Made by a program: the position numbers and the translations under genes
Part shown: positions 4,958 to 12,447 of the stretch, one piece after another
Layout of the letters: each line of letters begins with the position of its first letter
How positions within the stretch are numbered: position 1 is the first letter of the stretch
Assembly: GCA_012974425.1 (NCBI GenBank)
Contig: JAAXQE010000318.1
Span: forward strand, 1-32,110
Direction: 5' to 3'
DNA length: 32,110 bases
Source: Geopsychrobacter sp.
GTDB taxonomy: Bacteria > Desulfobacterota > Desulfuromonadia > Desulfuromonadales > Geopsychrobacteraceae
The notes under the pieces: generated by a model
Told to the model about the DNA's origin: nothing
What the model saw: the letters and a program-made list of their open reading frames with translations, nothing else
Databases searched by the model: none

Positions 4958-5779
4958 ATGAATTTTCTGGAGAAAATCAATCTGAACCTCCCAAGTAAAC
5001 AGCTGCTGCGCAAAATTCTGGAAACCGGACTCTTTCTGCTGATGGTCGCAGTGGTGTGTCGTGGTTTCTATCATGGTGCCGAGAACCTGGGTTATAACTG
5101 GCAGTGGTACCGCATCTCCCGTTACTTCGGCACCTTTGCGCAGGGCGGCTGGCAGGCCGGGCCGCTGGTGACGGGTTTGTTGGTGACCCTGCAGGTCGTC
5201 ACGGTCAGTCTGTTGTTTTCCTTGCTTATCGGACTACTGGTGGCGCTGATGCGCCTGAGCCGCAGCCCTGTGGCCCGCCTGCTTGCCAGTTGCTACCTGG
5301 AACTGATCCGCAACACCCCGCTCTTGGTGCAGATCTTTCTGATCTATTTTGTGCTGGCCCCGATCCTCGGGATTGAGCGTTTCGCGGCTGCGGTTCTGGC
5401 GCTCAGCCTGTTTGAGGGGGCCTATGCCTCGGAGATTTTTCGCGCCGGGATATTGGCGATTCCGGTTGGCCAATGGGAGGCCGCAGCCTCATTGGGGATG
5501 TCGTCACGCCAACGCTACCGCTATGTAGTGCTGCCCCAGGCGCTGCGCAATATGGCGCCCCCCTTGACCAGTCAGGGGATTTCGCTGATCAAGGATTCGG
5601 CGCTGGTTTCAACCATCGCGATCTATGATCTGAGCATGCGCGGCCAAGAGTTGGTTGCCGAGAGCTTCCTGACCTTTGAGGTCTGGTTCACAATTGCCCT
5701 GATTTACCTCTGTTTAACCCTGGGACTTTCCGCCGTGGTACGCTTATTCGAATGGCGTCTGGGTGCCCCGGGCGCATGA
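4958..5779 (+). CDS. Polar amino-acid ABC transporter permease (HisM/GlnP type)
   Basis: RBS 'aaggggag' before ATG 4958; EAA-loop region 'GQWEAAASLGMSSRQRYRYVVLPQALRNMAPPLTSQ'; 'ELIRNTPLLVQIFLIYF'. Confidence 0.92.
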   Translation: MNFLEKINLNLPSKQLLRKILETGLFLLMVAVVCRGFYHGAENLGYNWQWYRISRYFGTFAQGGWQAGPLVTGLLVTLQVVTVSLLFSLLIGLLVALMRLSRSPVARLLASCYLELIRNTPLLVQIFLIYFVLAPILGIERFAAAVLALSLFEGAYASEIFRAGILAIPVGQWEAAASLGMSSRQRYRYVVLPQALRNMAPPLTSQGISLIKDSALVSTIAIYDLSMRGQELVAESFLTFEVWFTIALIYLCLTLGLSAVVRLFEWRLGAPGA

Positions 5780-5799
5780 TCCCTTGCCGAGGAGAATGT

Positions 5800-6621
5800 A
5801 TGCCAGCGTTTAGAACGGTCCTGCTACTTGTTATCTTCCTTTTTGCAACAACATCTGCGTTTTCCGCCAGTATAAAACGGGATCTGTCCAAAGAGAGCAG
5901 CCTTGAGCAGGTGCTGAGCAAGAATCGCCTGCGGGTTGGTTTTTCGACCTTCGTCCCCTGGGCGATGAAGAATAAACGGGGTGATTTTGTCGGGTTCGAG
6001 ATCGATGTCGCCAGGAGACTTGCCGCCGATATGGGAGTCGCGATCGATTTTATTCCAACCAAGTGGTCTGGCATTATCCCGGCGCTGTTGACCGGTAAGC
6101 TCGATGTGATTATCGGCGGGATGGGGATTACTCCCGAACGGAACCTGAAGGTGAACTTTACCGATCCCTATGAATTCTCAGGGATGTCGCTTGTGGCTAG
6201 CAGCAAGCTGCCGGGGAAAACCGAGATCGCCAGTTTCAATCAGGCTGAGACCACAATTGTTGCCCGAATTGGAACAACTGCTGCCGAAGCCGCCAAAAAA
6301 TATCTGCCCAAGGCCGACTTGAGACTCTTCGATGATGAAGGCCAGGCCTTGCAGGAGGTCCTGAACGGGCGCGCTATGGCGATGGTTTCCTCGCAACCCT
6401 TCCCCGAGTTTCAGAGTCTGAAGTACCCGGAACGTCTCTATTTGCCGCTGGCTGGTGAGACCTTCACCAAGGAACCGATCGGGATTGCGCTTGGCAAGGG
6501 GGACGTCGACTTTCTCAATTTCCTGAACAACTGGATCCGGGTGCGTCAGGCCGATGGTTTTCTGCAGGAGCGTTACGCCTACTGGTTTACCACCCAGGAC
6601 TGGCAGGGGCAGATGGAGTAG
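5800..6621 (+). CDS. Amino-acid ABC transporter substrate-binding protein (SBP_bac_3 type)
   Basis: Signal peptide 'MPAFRTVLLLVIFLFATTSAFSAS'; 'LRVGFSTFVPWAMKNKRGDFVGFEIDVARRLAADMG'; 'DVIIGGMGITPERNLKVNFTDPY'. RBS 'gaggag'. Confidence 0.92.
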   Translation: MPAFRTVLLLVIFLFATTSAFSASIKRDLSKESSLEQVLSKNRLRVGFSTFVPWAMKNKRGDFVGFEIDVARRLAADMGVAIDFIPTKWSGIIPALLTGKLDVIIGGMGITPERNLKVNFTDPYEFSGMSLVASSKLPGKTEIASFNQAETTIVARIGTTAAEAAKKYLPKADLRLFDDEGQALQEVLNGRAMAMVSSQPFPEFQSLKYPERLYLPLAGETFTKEPIGIALGKGDVDFLNFLNNWIRVRQADGFLQERYAYWFTTQDWQGQME

Positions 6622-7509
6622 ATGTCATTACTGCCTGGTGGGAAAATAAAATGGAGCGGCATCGATCTGGTGCTGCTCCTGCTGCTGGGGCTGGTCGGCA
6701 CCCTGTTGGTGTATCGAATCAACGAGAACCTGGCCTATCGCTGGAACTGGGCGGCCATACCACAGTATTTTTTCTACTTCGATGAAGAGAGCGCCGCGTA
6801 CCTGCCGAACCTGCTGGTTCAGGGGCTGCTGACGACAATTCGCTTGAGTATCTGGAGTCTGGTGCTGGCGTTGCCGTTGGGGATTGTGATCGGTCTGCTG
6901 CGGATCAGTCAGCATCTGTTCAATCGACTGGTGGGCGGCAGCTTTGTCGCTCTGTTCCGCAACCTGCCGCCATTGGTGCTGGTCTTCATCGGCTACTACT
7001 TCATCAGTGATCAAATTTTGCCGCAACTCGGCCTGCCCGCGCTGATCCAGCGCCTCCCCGCGTCGAGTGAGACTCTCGTGCGCCTGTTTTTCGCTCCACC
7101 CGCTCAGCTCGAGGCTTTTCTGGCGGCGGTGATGACGCTGGCTCTGCTCGAAGGGGCCTATATCGCGGAAATTGTGCGTGCCGGACTGCAGGCGGTTGTC
7201 AGGGGGCAGTGGGAGGCGGGGGCGGCGCTCGGGTTTAAGCGCTGGCAGATTCTGCGTCAGATCATCTTTCCGCAGGCCTTGCGCCCGATGGTTCCGCCTT
7301 TGGCCGGTCAATTTATTTCAACCATCAAAGATTCGGCAATCGTTTCGGTCATCTCTATCCAGGAGTTGACCTTTCAGGGGATGGAGTTGATGTCGGCCAC
7401 GTATCTGACCTTTGAGATCTGGCTCTGCATCGCACTCCTCTATTTCCTGTTGACCTTCGGCTGCTCACTTGTGGCGCGGCGCCTCGAAACCTCCTTGGCC
7501 GACCGCTAG
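6622..7509 (+). CDS. Polar amino-acid ABC transporter permease
   Basis: 'GQWEAGAALGFKRWQILRQIIFPQALRPMVPPLAGQFISTIKDSA' EAA loop; starts directly after the SBP stop codon. Confidence 0.92.
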   Translation: MSLLPGGKIKWSGIDLVLLLLLGLVGTLLVYRINENLAYRWNWAAIPQYFFYFDEESAAYLPNLLVQGLLTTIRLSIWSLVLALPLGIVIGLLRISQHLFNRLVGGSFVALFRNLPPLVLVFIGYYFISDQILPQLGLPALIQRLPASSETLVRLFFAPPAQLEAFLAAVMTLALLEGAYIAEIVRAGLQAVVRGQWEAGAALGFKRWQILRQIIFPQALRPMVPPLAGQFISTIKDSAIVSVISIQELTFQGMELMSATYLTFEIWLCIALLYFLLTFGCSLVARRLETSLADR

Positions 7510-7598: not shown

Positions 7599-7628
7599 TT
7601 GTGCTACGATTTTCATATTTGTGCCACG
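7597..7628 (+). repeat. Direct repeat ATTTGTGCYACG, two copies 20 bp apart, overlapping the -10/start region
   Basis: ATTTGTGCTACG at 7597-7608 and ATTTGTGCCACG at 7617-7628. Confidence 0.7.
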
Positions 7629-7647: not shown

Positions 7648-8436
7648 ATGCCAAATATCCGTCTGGTTCTCGCCTGTGCCCTGCTGCTTGTCGCCGGCCC
7701 CGCACTGGCGCATTTCGGGGTGATCCTGCCGTCTGATGATATCATCGCGCAAAATGAGAGCAGAACTCTCGAGCTGCAGGTCAAGTTTATTCATCCGGCC
7801 GAGGGCCAATATATGGAGATGGCCAGGCCGCAACGGTTCGAGGTGCACAGGGGGGGGAAGCGCGAAGATCTGCTGCCTGCCCTTGAAGCAGTCACATTTC
7901 AGTCTGCGGGTCAAAAAACGCCAGTCCGATACTGGCGCGCAGCCTATCAGGTGCGACGTCCCGGTGATCACACCTTCTTTGTTGAGCCGACCCCTTACTG
8001 GGAAGCGGCGGAGGATAAATTTATCCTGCATTATACCAAGGTCTGTGTCTCTGCCTTCGGCCTGGCGGGGAGTTGGGATCAGCCGCTGGGCGTTGAAACC
8101 GAAATCGTGCCCCTGAGTCGTCCCTATGGGCTCTGGACCGGAAATCTGTTTTCCGGGCAGGTGCTGCTGAAGGGAAATCCTCTGCCGTTTGCCGAAATTG
8201 AGGTTGAATACCTGAATGAGGCGGCAATCGGAGAGCAGCTCTCTTTTCCTGCAGGCCCCTTTGTGGCGCAGACGCTTAAGGCCGATAACCAGGGGTTTTT
8301 CCATTATGCCATGCCGAAGGCAGGTTGGTGGGGTTTTGCCGCACTCTCGGATGCGGACTGGAAATTGCAAAAAGATGGCGAGGGTAAAGGTGTCGAGCTC
8401 GGCGCGGTCTATTGGGTCAGGGCGACAGATCTCTAA
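7648..8436 (+). CDS. nikK: DUF4198 periplasmic component of Ni/Co ECF transporter (NikK-like)
   Basis: Signal peptide ending in 'AGPALAHFGVILPSDD'; 'ELQVKFIHPAEGQYMEMARPQRFEV'; located at the head of a cbiMQO operon. Confidence 0.8.
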   Translation: MPNIRLVLACALLLVAGPALAHFGVILPSDDIIAQNESRTLELQVKFIHPAEGQYMEMARPQRFEVHRGGKREDLLPALEAVTFQSAGQKTPVRYWRAAYQVRRPGDHTFFVEPTPYWEAAEDKFILHYTKVCVSAFGLAGSWDQPLGVETEIVPLSRPYGLWTGNLFSGQVLLKGNPLPFAEIEVEYLNEAAIGEQLSFPAGPFVAQTLKADNQGFFHYAMPKAGWWGFAALSDADWKLQKDGEGKGVELGAVYWVRATDL

Positions 8437-8451
8437 ACTTTGGGTTTCCAG

Positions 8452-8778
8452 ATGAAAAAAGCCTTGCTGCTTCTCTTGCTTATGGGTCTGCTTGGCGCCA
8501 CTCCGGCACTGGCTCACAAGGTCAATCTGTTTGCCTACGTGGAGGGCGGTCAGATCTTCATGGAGAGCTATTTCCCCGACGGACGCCCGCTTAAACAGGC
8601 TATCGTTGAAATTTATTCGCCCGAAATGCAATTACTGCAGCAGGGTGTGACCGATGATGAGGGACAGTATACCTGCGCCATCCCGCGGTTTGTCGCTCTG
8701 GAATTACGGGTCAGGGCGAGCATGGGGCATCAAGCCAGCTTTATCCTCAAGCGGACCGAACTGGAGTCGGGGCGATGA
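8452..8778 (+). CDS. NikL-like N-terminal part (signal peptide plus carboxypeptidase-regulatory-like fold)
   Basis: 'PALAHKVNLFAYVEGGQIFMESYFPDGRPLKQAIVEIYSPEMQLLQQGVTDDEGQYTCAIP'. Confidence 0.75.
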   Translation: MKKALLLLLLMGLLGATPALAHKVNLFAYVEGGQIFMESYFPDGRPLKQAIVEIYSPEMQLLQQGVTDDEGQYTCAIPRFVALELRVRASMGHQASFILKRTELESGR

Positions 8779-9053
8779 CTGTTTTCCGCCGGGTTATCTA
8801 TCTTGGGTTGCTGGTTTCCTGTCTTTTTTTTGTCGGCCCGCAACTGATCATGGCCCAGCAAGTGCCGGCGCAGGTTGAACTGTTGCAAGAGAAGAACCAG
8901 CAATTGCATCAACAATTGCGCGATGCGCGCCGCGAGATCGCCCGCTTGAAGGCTGAGGATTCCGCGCCGGGGTGGAAAGATGTCGTGACCGGTCTTGGCG
9001 CGATCTTTGGTCTCTGTGGCGTTGTGATGATGGTGAACGCCCGGCGGCGTTAA
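8775..9053 (+). CDS. NikL-like C-terminal part: own signal/TM, coiled coil, C-terminal TM (92 aa)
   Basis: ATGA overlap with the previous ORF; 'LLQEKNQQLHQQLRDARREIARLKAE' coiled coil; C-terminus 'WKDVVTGLGAIFGLCGVVMMVNARRR'. Confidence 0.75.
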   Translation: MTVFRRVIYLGLLVSCLFFVGPQLIMAQQVPAQVELLQEKNQQLHQQLRDARREIARLKAEDSAPGWKDVVTGLGAIFGLCGVVMMVNARRR

Positions 9054-9091
9054 ATATCGATGACAATCTTTTTCGGAGCTTCTCTTTTTTT

Positions 9092-9712
9092 ATGCATATC
9101 TCTGATGGTGTTCTCCCAACCGCTGTTGCGCTCGGTAGCTATGCGCTGAGTGCCGGGATAGTAGTCTGGAGTCTGCGCCGCACGCCTACGGATGATCTGC
9201 CTAAGGTGGCAGTCATGACCTCTGCATTTTTTGTCGCATCGCTGATCCATTTACCCTTCGGGCCAACCAGCGTTCATCTGCTGATCCCTGGCCTGGTCGG
9301 GGCGCTCCTCGGCCCTTCAGCCTTTCTGGCTATCGCGCTGGGCCTGGTATTGCAATGCCTGTTGTTTCAGTTTGGCGGGCTGACCGCACTCGGGGCAAAC
9401 CTGTTGCTGATGGGACTACCGGCGCTCTTGGCGGGTCTGGTTTTCTATCACTTCAAGGGACGCGGTAAGAAACAACGCATCCTGGTCGGTGCCCTGTGCG
9501 GCGGCGGGGCGACGCTTTTTTCGGCCCTGTTGCTCGCTCTCCTGCTGGCCAGTGGCGGCGAAGATTTTATGGGGGTCGCCAAGCTGGCCTTGCTCGCCCA
9601 TATCCCGGTGGTCCTGGTCGAAGCCGGGGTCAGTGCCATGGTTGTCTCTTTTCTGCTCAAGGTGAAGCCGGAACTGCTTGATATCCCCTTCGTGCTCAAG
9701 GAGAAACTGTGA
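9092..9712 (+). CDS. cbiM: CbiM/NikM substrate-specific ECF component
   Basis: N-terminal 'MHISDGVLP' with the His2 motif typical of CbiM/NikM; 'HLPFGPTSVHLLIPGLVGALLGP'. Confidence 0.92.
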   Translation: MHISDGVLPTAVALGSYALSAGIVVWSLRRTPTDDLPKVAVMTSAFFVASLIHLPFGPTSVHLLIPGLVGALLGPSAFLAIALGLVLQCLLFQFGGLTALGANLLLMGLPALLAGLVFYHFKGRGKKQRILVGALCGGGATLFSALLLALLLASGGEDFMGVAKLALLAHIPVVLVEAGVSAMVVSFLLKVKPELLDIPFVLKEKL

Positions 9713-10623
9713 GCGGTACGCTCCCGGTCTCTGTTTTATGGTTGTTGCCGTTGCTGCTTTTGCCGCTGGCGGTCTATTCCGGCTTTCGCATGCTGATCGG
9801 TATCGCACGCAAGGAGCAGGGCGCAGAGGAGCGCGACTGGTCGGTCCCGCAGATTGAGTTTGAAGGGGGTGAGATCTCAGCGGTCCATCGCTGGGATGTG
9901 CGCTTTAAGCTGGCCAGTTTTCTACTCCTGGCTTTTTTGATCGTATCCCTGCAGCATCCGCAAACGGCTGGGGCGGCACTGCTGTTGGCCCTGGTCGGCT
10001 ACCGGCTGGCCGCTATCCCCTGGCGGCGTGGCTTGAAGCGCCTGCTCGGCATGGCAGGCTTTTTGTCGATGTTCCTGCTGATGCTGCCGCTGACCGCGGT
10101 GCAACAGAGCAGTGATCTGGTGCTGGTGTTCGGCAGCATCGACTGGCTTAATTTTAATCTGCGCGGCCTGGATCTGGCTATATTGATCATCCTGCGCGCC
10201 GCGACGGTCGCCCTGTTGATGGAACCCCTGTTGGCAACCGCACCATTGCCGGTGACCCTGGCTGGACTCGCGCGGATGGGGGTGCCGCGCCGCCTGACCG
10301 AGCTGCTGCTGATTACCCACCGTTATCTCTATGTCTTCCTCCACGAAGCGCGGCGCATGCAGATCGGCATGGAGGTGCGTGGCTTTCGCAAATCGACCAG
10401 TCTGGCGACCCTGCGTTCAGTCGGTAATTATGTCGGGATGCTCTTTGTGCGCAGCTTTGAACGCACCGAGCGGGTCCATGCGGCCATGCTGGCGCGTGGC
10501 TATCAGGGTCACTGGCCCCAGCCTATCAGCTTCAATGTGCGCTCTGGCGATTATCTTAAGGCGGGCCTGGTGATCGGCATCGGACTGCTGCTGGTCATCT
10601 GTGACCAGTTCTTGGGGGGATAG
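9709..10623 (+). CDS. cbiQ: CbiQ/NikQ energy-coupling factor transmembrane protein
   Basis: 'RWDVRFKLASFLLLAFLIVS'; 'LARMGVPRRLTELLLITHRYLYVFLHEARRMQIGMEVRGFR'; GTG start overlapping the cbiM stop. Confidence 0.9.
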   Translation: MSGTLPVSVLWLLPLLLLPLAVYSGFRMLIGIARKEQGAEERDWSVPQIEFEGGEISAVHRWDVRFKLASFLLLAFLIVSLQHPQTAGAALLLALVGYRLAAIPWRRGLKRLLGMAGFLSMFLLMLPLTAVQQSSDLVLVFGSIDWLNFNLRGLDLAILIILRAATVALLMEPLLATAPLPVTLAGLARMGVPRRLTELLLITHRYLYVFLHEARRMQIGMEVRGFRKSTSLATLRSVGNYVGMLFVRSFERTERVHAAMLARGYQGHWPQPISFNVRSGDYLKAGLVIGIGLLLVICDQFLGG

Positions 10624-10629
10624 ACATAG

Positions 10630-12447
10630 ATGCATCAGCATATGAAAGCAGCCGAGTTTGAGCATGATAACCGCCTGTTGATGCAGGTTGAATCCCTCGC
10701 CTACCGCTATCCGGATGGCACCCAGGCGCTCGCTGGGATTAATCTTCAAGTCAGGGCCGGTGATCGCATCGCCCTGGTCGGACACAACGGTTCAGGTAAA
10801 ACGACTCTGGTCAAACAGCTCTGTGGTCTGCTGCTGCCGGACGCGGGGAGCGTCACCTATAAAGGCGCGCAATTTGTCGGAGCGCATCTGGCGAGTGCCC
10901 GTCTGGAGATTGGCTTGCTTTTTCAGGATCCTGACGATCAGCTGTTTGGTAACAGCCTCTATGAAGACGTGGCCTTCGGCCCGCGTAATCAGGGGCAGTC
11001 TGAGGTCGATGTCGATCTGGCGGTGCGTCAGGCGCTGAAGGCTGTCGGGCTCGAAGCTCTGATGTTCAAGCCACCCCATGCCCTGAGTTACGGGCAAAAG
11101 AAGCGCGCTGCCCTCGCCGGTCTGCTGGCGATGCGCCCCTCCTTATTGATTCTGGATGAACCGACCGCCAACCTCGACTCTGTACAGGAACAGATCTTTC
11201 TCGATCTGCTCAAGAACTATGCGGGAACCCTTATTCTGATCAGCCATGATCTGATCTTCCTCTACGAACTCTGTGAGCGCGCGCTGGTGCTGGATAGCGG
11301 TCGGGTTCACCACGATTATCCGCTGAAAGAACTGGTCGCGCATCGCCCCTCCTTGCGCGAGCACGGTTTGGACTTCTCTTTCCGTTTTGCCGAGAGCCGC
11401 CAGAAAGCGGAGACGGTAGCGGTTGAACGACGTAAATTCGCGCATAAGATTGAGCTTGATGTCTCAGCTGGTAGTCGTTCTTCTGCTCTGGTTGATGTTC
11501 GATCCCTGTCCTATCGCTATCCAGACGGGACCCAGGCGCTGAAGGAGATAGATCTGGCGATAAAGCCGAGCGAGCGGCTCGCCTTGGTCGGAGCGAATGG
11601 GGCCGGTAAGAGTACTCTGCTGATGTGCCTGCTGGGTATTTTCCCTTTTAGCGGAGAGTACCGTTTTGCCGGCAAAAAGATATTACCGGGTAAGGGACGA
11701 GCGGTCTGGCGACAGACCGGGATGGTCTTTCAGGACTGCGCCGATCAGCTGGTCTGCCCGAGCTGTTATGATGAGGTTGCCTTTGCCCCGCGTCAGTTTG
11801 GCGTTGCTGAGGAGCAAGTCAGGGAGCGTGTCGAATTAGCCCTTAAAATGGTCAAGCTCGATGGGTTTGAGGAGCGCGTCCCTCTGCATCTCTCCGGTGG
11901 CGAACGGAAGCGTCTGGCTCTGGCCAGTGTGCTGAGCCTGCAGCCACAGCTCTTAATTCTGGATGAACCGACCGCAGGCCTCGACCCGCAGGGCGAAGAG
12001 CTGCTGCTCGATATCTTAAGTGAAATTGATGCCACTCTGATTCTGGTTAGCCACGATATCTTCTTCGTGCGTGAACTGACCCAGCGCACCCTGGTCATGC
12101 ATGCTGGCGAGATCGCCCTCGATTATTCAACCAAGAGCTTTTTTGCCGATAAAAACCTGACCAGTCTGAATGGTCTCGATTATACCTATCGCGACCGCTG
12201 TGCGCTGCAGATCCGAGAGTTGCAACACCGCCACGAGCATGCCCATCCGCACCGCCACCTTCACGAGCATAGCCATCGACATGGCGATCTGGTTCACCGG
12301 CACCCGCACGAACATCAGCACGAGCATGAGCACAGTTATGTCCACCGTCACGCTGATCAGGGTGCCCATCAGCATCCTATCCAGAATGAATATCATGAGC
12401 ATGACCATCCTGCTCATGAAGAGGACGACCACGACCACGCACACTAA
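10630..12447 (+). CDS. cbiO: CbiO/NikO: two fused ABC ATPase domains with a His-rich C-terminal tail
   Basis: Two Walker A motifs (GHNGSGKTTL, GANGAGKSTL), two Walker B motifs (LLILDEPTANL, LLILDEPTAGL), two signature motifs (LSYGQKKR, LSGGERKR). The last 73 residues contain 28 His. Confidence 0.93.
   Translation: MHQHMKAAEFEHDNRLLMQVESLAYRYPDGTQALAGINLQVRAGDRIALVGHNGSGKTTLVKQLCGLLLPDAGSVTYKGAQFVGAHLASARLEIGLLFQDPDDQLFGNSLYEDVAFGPRNQGQSEVDVDLAVRQALKAVGLEALMFKPPHALSYGQKKRAALAGLLAMRPSLLILDEPTANLDSVQEQIFLDLLKNYAGTLILISHDLIFLYELCERALVLDSGRVHHDYPLKELVAHRPSLREHGLDFSFRFAESRQKAETVAVERRKFAHKIELDVSAGSRSSALVDVRSLSYRYPDGTQALKEIDLAIKPSERLALVGANGAGKSTLLMCLLGIFPFSGEYRFAGKKILPGKGRAVWRQTGMVFQDCADQLVCPSCYDEVAFAPRQFGVAEEQVRERVELALKMVKLDGFEERVPLHLSGGERKRLALASVLSLQPQLLILDEPTAGLDPQGEELLLDILSEIDATLILVSHDIFFVRELTQRTLVMHAGEIALDYSTKSFFADKNLTSLNGLDYTYRDRCALQIRELQHRHEHAHPHRHLHEHSHRHGDLVHRHPHEHQHEHEHSYVHRHADQGAHQHPIQNEYHEHDHPAHEEDDHDHAH

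Follow-up and report, generated by a model that had tools for sequence, protein, structure and literature searches.

Does this Geopsychrobacter operon encode NikL, a component of nickel/cobalt ECF transporters, as two separately made proteins, or is the division of the gene only apparent? The initial annotation of the window (the whole 32,110-nucleotide stretch of DNA that was analysed) had proposed that NikL is divided over two ORFs by a functional gene fission and that a 4-bp ATGA overlap leads into a second ORF of 92 amino acids. The genome bearing the window is a 3.28-Mb draft in 327 contigs, and the nearest named relative for the operon is a Geopsychrobacter MAG with a 94% identical NikM. 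Six genes lie on the plus strand at 7648-12447, namely nikK (DUF4198), nikL1, nikL2, nikM, nikQ and a double-domain nikO, and the locus contains the following features.

7602..7628, plus strand: candidate NikR-type operator GTGCTAC-N13-GTGCCAC, about 20 bp upstream of nikK.
7648..8436, plus strand: nikK, periplasmic DUF4198 protein (PF10670, E = 2.5e-54); predicted mature N-terminus His (cleavage between ALA and HFGV).
8452..8778, plus strand: nikL1 (proposed name; ORF1), ATG at 8452, TGA at 8778, 108 amino acids; signal peptide and globular beta-sandwich domain of NikL.
8775..8778, plus strand: ATGA start/stop overlap of nikL1 and nikL2, a candidate for translational coupling.
8775..9053, plus strand: nikL2 (proposed name; ORF2), ATG at 8775, TAA at 9053, 92 amino acids.
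9092..9712, plus strand: nikM/cbiM, substrate-binding S component, starting MHISDG (PF01891, E = 6.1e-51).
9709..10623, plus strand: nikQ/cbiQ, T component (PF02361, E = 2.4e-33; TIGR02454), with a DWSVP motif and an additional hydrophobic segment at the N terminus.
10630..12447, plus strand: nikO/cbiO, two ABC ATPase domains (two ABC_tran stretches) on a single chain that ends in a His-rich tail.

With nikK, nikM, nikQ, nikO and NikL in one operon and no CbiN, the locus has the components of the NikKMLQO-type ECF transporter (NikL family NF058648, H. influenzae HI1622 type), and both NikL parts as well as NikK, NikM, NikQ and NikO are recognisable. The window's NikM was the sole CbiM-family protein found in the genome, in which CbiN had no match. 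Among NikK homologues, A-H is conserved after the signal.

The two ORFs jointly cover the NikL family model NF058648 (180 positions) except for the linker, each matching its own part: ORF1 aligns to positions 2-98 (E = 2.9e-25, 89.3 bits) and ORF2 to positions 130-180 (E = 1.9e-9, 37.7 bits). Neither alone reaches the 100-bit cut-off that would mark a one-chain NikL. In profile-profile comparisons, the ORF1 family matched the N-terminal part of one-chain NikL with a probability of 100, and the ORF2 family matched the C-terminal part with a probability of 99.1 over 54 columns. All aligned homologues of either ORF also matched NF058648 (44/44 for ORF1 and 49/49 for ORF2). The NikL-type C-terminus that had been attributed to ORF2 is thus borne out, as is the ATGA overlap at the head of this 92-amino-acid ORF.

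The split point coincides with a domain boundary. In an AlphaFold2 model (pLDDT 92.5), ORF1 forms a complete seven-stranded beta sandwich that lies whole within the ORF, and mature NikL1, predicted to start after cleavage between ALA and HKVN, has no transmembrane (TM) segment. Residues invariant in 44 ORF1 homologues include His22, Glu38, Tyr40 and His93, of which His22 is predicted to be the mature N-terminus. In 25 one-chain NikL proteins, too, this first mature His, directly after the predicted cleavage site, is invariant, as is a Gly-His. Fold searches with ORF1 returned generic beta-sandwich proteins as neighbours, and weak Foldseek matches included CopC and the metal-binding protein Zcp (TM-scores about 0.4-0.6). 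Among solved structures, no sequence match was explanatory for ORF1, the sole one being a collagen adhesion protein repeat.

ORF2 comprises a signal-like N-terminus (residues ~1-27), a helical coiled coil (30-62) and a C-terminal TM segment with a Gly motif and a basic tail (67-92); its structural model shows helices at 2-20, 30-62 and 67-91 (pLDDT 73.5). The initial annotation had described the N-terminal segment as new and as a signal or TM segment. Its hydrophobicity and novelty held up: ORF2 homologues start with such a segment (L071 was taken from an over-long ORF, in which an internal ATG reveals the same hydrophobic segment), and the 40-90-residue linkers of one-chain NikL contain nothing comparable. 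As to its nature, a signal peptide is favoured over a second TM anchor. The median uncharged run in ORF2 homologues is 14 residues at the N terminus and 20 in the C-terminal TM segment, and, with cleavage judged from motifs, 37/49 proteins carry an AxA-like site and 13/49 a strict AxA site. The ORF2 N terminus therefore has the appearance of a signal peptide that can be cleaved, not of another anchor in the membrane, and mature ORF2 would keep one TM segment, as one-chain NikL does. Matches of ORF2 to DivIC/FtsL-type proteins were taken as generic similarity between proteins with a membrane segment plus a coiled coil. In one NikL2 subgroup (L045, L047, L050, L052 and L053), a single Cys is conserved shortly past the predicted cleavage site; the window's NikL2 is without it.

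An uncleaved N-terminal segment would turn ORF2 into a two-TM component of the CbiN/NikN type that has replaced the NikL C-terminus. Its length of 92 amino acids and its layout (hydrophobic, periplasmic stretch, hydrophobic) are CbiN-like, and NikN and CbiN are known to share a topology without sequence similarity (PMC2667541). However, the ORF2 profile fits the NikL C-terminus and not CbiN (probability 1.5), ORF2 has no Pfam CbiN (PF02553) match, and the short N-terminal run fits a signal peptide, which leaves this alternative unlikely. NikL2 would nevertheless resemble CbiN/NikN in being a small membrane protein that partners the M component, albeit one without sequence relation to CbiN.

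Given that the window comes from a 327-contig draft and that the two halves sit in different frames, an ordinary one-chain nikL broken by a sequencing or assembly frameshift had to be considered. The locus was present in 6/8 other genomes of the genus that we searched (the remaining two, both drafts, gave no match); all six have the same split, with no fused gene, and they include the single-contig genome G003. Recurrence of the split in this closed genome and in independent assemblies rules out a read error. Moreover, the additional signal-like segment of ORF2 is missing from one-chain linkers, and both ORFs are under purifying selection, with dN/dS values against the nearest relative of 0.23 for ORF1 and 0.19 for ORF2. 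Within ORF2, dN/dS is 0.10 over codons 29-92, and the signal segment is weakly constrained (0.8 on 27 codons). An artefactual split is consequently hardly conceivable.

Programmed frameshifting could also join the two frames into a single NikL, making the split merely apparent, and the second frame is indeed -1 to the first where the 4-bp overlap occurs, in 39/54 split loci. Yet the remainder have other spacings and frames (in some loci the ORFs are separated by a gap or by a stop in the same frame), and the variable frame relation (offsets 43/9/2) argues against such a mechanism. In addition, the junction in the window shows no slippery site, and a joined chain would contain an internal signal sequence. 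We regard programmed frameshifting as very improbable. The observation of a divided NikL is thus confirmed, and its reading as a gene fission, as initially proposed, is supported.

The split is widespread. A public-genome scan with one genome per species, based on the ORF1 alignment, yielded 80 loci, of which 54 were split, 22 one-chain and 4 unclassified (two at contig ends and two with a short NikL without a detected C-terminus), and the split loci were almost all from Desulfobacterota, which include sulfate and metal reducers. At the level of the order, many families have the split form and a few have one-chain NikL. Of 394 genomes sampled from the phylum, 185 had NikL matches, most of them one-chain and a minority split, and a plasmid collection contained one distant match. 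Separately, several full-model NF058648 matches carry one in-frame stop (L066 and L067, from G058 and G076, as well as matches in G413, G591, G575 and G398); in L066 and L067 this is a split whose two halves share a frame.

In a NikM tree rooted with CbiM of CbiMNQO systems, a distant outgroup with a branch length of 5, all 55 split rows formed one group (bootstrap 99, SH-aLRT 96; recovered in 98% of bootstrap trees). This group is nested inside one-chain loci, the closest of which (L100, L119, L125 and L138) have the order K-L-M-Q-O; most one-chain loci have K-M-L. Because the split loci form one NikM group beside one-chain K-L-M-Q-O operons, a single ancient fission of nikL is likely from these sequences, and we infer that nikL first moved upstream of nikM and then divided once. 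The NikK tree, a quick tree with few starred forks, is roughly compatible, but requires two changes for the split group.

The tree could be explained by one change in either direction, and free-standing NikL N-domains exist, which speaks for an ancestral split and an origin of one-chain NikL by fusion. Against this improbable order of events, the CbiM-rooted tree nests the split group among one-chain loci, beside K-L-M-Q-O operons, and most NikL matches in the phylum sample are one-chain. Fission rather than later fusion is the likely direction, based on the distant CbiM outgroup and on how widely one-chain NikL is distributed, although it is not proven because the root lies far away.

The fission coincides with changes elsewhere in the operon. 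NikQ proteins of split loci are mostly 300-320 amino acids long, and 40/45 NikQ proteins of the split clade, versus 0/19 of the one-chain clade, have DW[ST][VI]P after a hydrophobic segment at the N terminus. NikO spans 545-700 amino acids with two ATPase domains in most complete split loci, as opposed to about 210-330 amino acids in one-chain loci, and many split-clade NikO proteins, including that of the window, have a His-rich C-terminal tail. Compared with the NikKMLQO type, in which the order is mostly K-M-L-Q-O, the split clade is therefore distinguished by the order K-L1-L2-M-Q-O, a NikL that consists of two proteins with two signal sequences, a tandem-ATPase NikO and an N-terminally extended NikQ. 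Judged by these comparisons, the fission is not peculiar to the window's genome; it belongs to one nickel/cobalt ECF clade with an altered gene order, tandem NikO and longer NikQ.

Part of the split clade has the NikO tail, with ~28 His among the last 80 residues in close relatives; the Desulfobulbales-like part has almost none of it (2-5 His). L138, a one-chain neighbour of the split clade, has two adjacent separate nikO genes (5373-6918), an arrangement from which the tandem NikO may have arisen.

What might a divided NikL do? The roles of NikK and NikL in nickel ECF transporters are poorly known. The Ideonella DUF4198 protein (IsDUF4198) binds Ni2+ via its N-terminal His with a Kd of 18 nM, metal binding by such a His has also been shown for other families, and when fused to nickel permeases of the HupE type, N-terminal-His domains have been termed metal 'anglerases' (PMC12537917). 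NikL1 resembles such catchers (DUF4198, DUF6702, 'anglerases' fused to HupE/UreJ, CopC) in its beta-rich, putatively periplasmic domain and its link to Ni transport, and it is predicted to share their conserved His exposed by signal cleavage (PMC12537917). It differs from the DUF4198, DUF6702 and CopC-type families in having no Pfam match above cut-off, and NikL is not named in the paper on N-terminal-His catchers (PMC12537917). With its layout of a His-first domain, a linker and a TM segment, one-chain NikL may by analogy be a tethered metal catcher; in the split form, we infer, the catcher would be freed and the coiled-coil/TM stub would stay with NikM.

We propose that NikL1 would be exported and its signal cut so that it begins with His, becoming a free periplasmic metal catcher beside NikK; NikK would have the same kind of N-terminal His, and the two would convey the ion within the periplasm. 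With a signal of its own for export, NikL2 would keep only its C-terminal TM segment, oriented N-out and C-in as in one-chain NikL. This glycine-rich segment could pack against NikM/NikQ, making NikL2 a membrane partner of NikM, and NikL1 or NikK may dock on the coiled coil, with docking in place of tethering. NikM would then take the ion via its own N-terminal Met-His, NikQ and the double NikO would drive uptake, and co-translation across the ATGA overlap could hold the halves near 1:1. That ORF1 and ORF2 are halves of NikL, made separately after one ancient fission and working in this manner, is in our judgement highly probable.

TM-less NikL-N-like proteins of 103-108 amino acids are encoded beside DUF4198 genes at four further loci (L060:4296-4622, L062:1374-1685, L057:2361-2675 and L058:4333-4653), which suggests that the NikL domain can exist untethered. 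They have His after the signal and a later Gly-His or Asn-His. By eye, an FeoB-like gene neighbours those at L060 and L062 and a TonB-dependent-receptor-like gene lies near those at L057 and L058; perhaps these loci are metal uptake modules for other ions. More speculatively, and in our view less likely than not, the ECF clade may have turned a tethered catcher into a free periplasmic metal shuttle while its energising module was remodelled by a tandem NikO and an extended NikQ. If so, the importer would use a soluble binding protein much like a canonical ABC importer.

The transporter itself is known, and the split NikL is apparently undescribed: we found no description of a divided NikL in the open literature searched. 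Desulfogranum mediterraneum (L153), a bearer of the Desulfogranum-type nik cluster, falls in the split group; the consulted passages of a cable-bacteria paper report a doubled NikO and a differing operon structure in Desulfogranum and make no mention of a divided NikL (PMC11247825). In the window and most relatives, each half scores under the NikL cut-off and the genes are therefore likely left as hypothetical proteins; many Desulfobacterota are likely mis-scored as being without NikL in nickel/cobalt uptake. A separate catcher and anchor can each be deleted, moved or supplied alone, which renders the role of tethering testable.

Finally, sites upstream of the operons bear on the substrate. 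The candidate operator at 7602-7628 matches the deltaproteobacterial NikR consensus GTGTTAC-N13/14-GTAACAC (PMC545781) at 11/14 positions, which is weak on its own, and a NikR-family protein scoring below the family cut-off is encoded elsewhere in the genome. Across the split group, NikR-like sites with no more than three mismatches, one of them perfect, were found upstream of nikK in 14/50 operons compared with 2.7% of shuffles. These sites speak for nickel as the transported metal in at least some of the split group.
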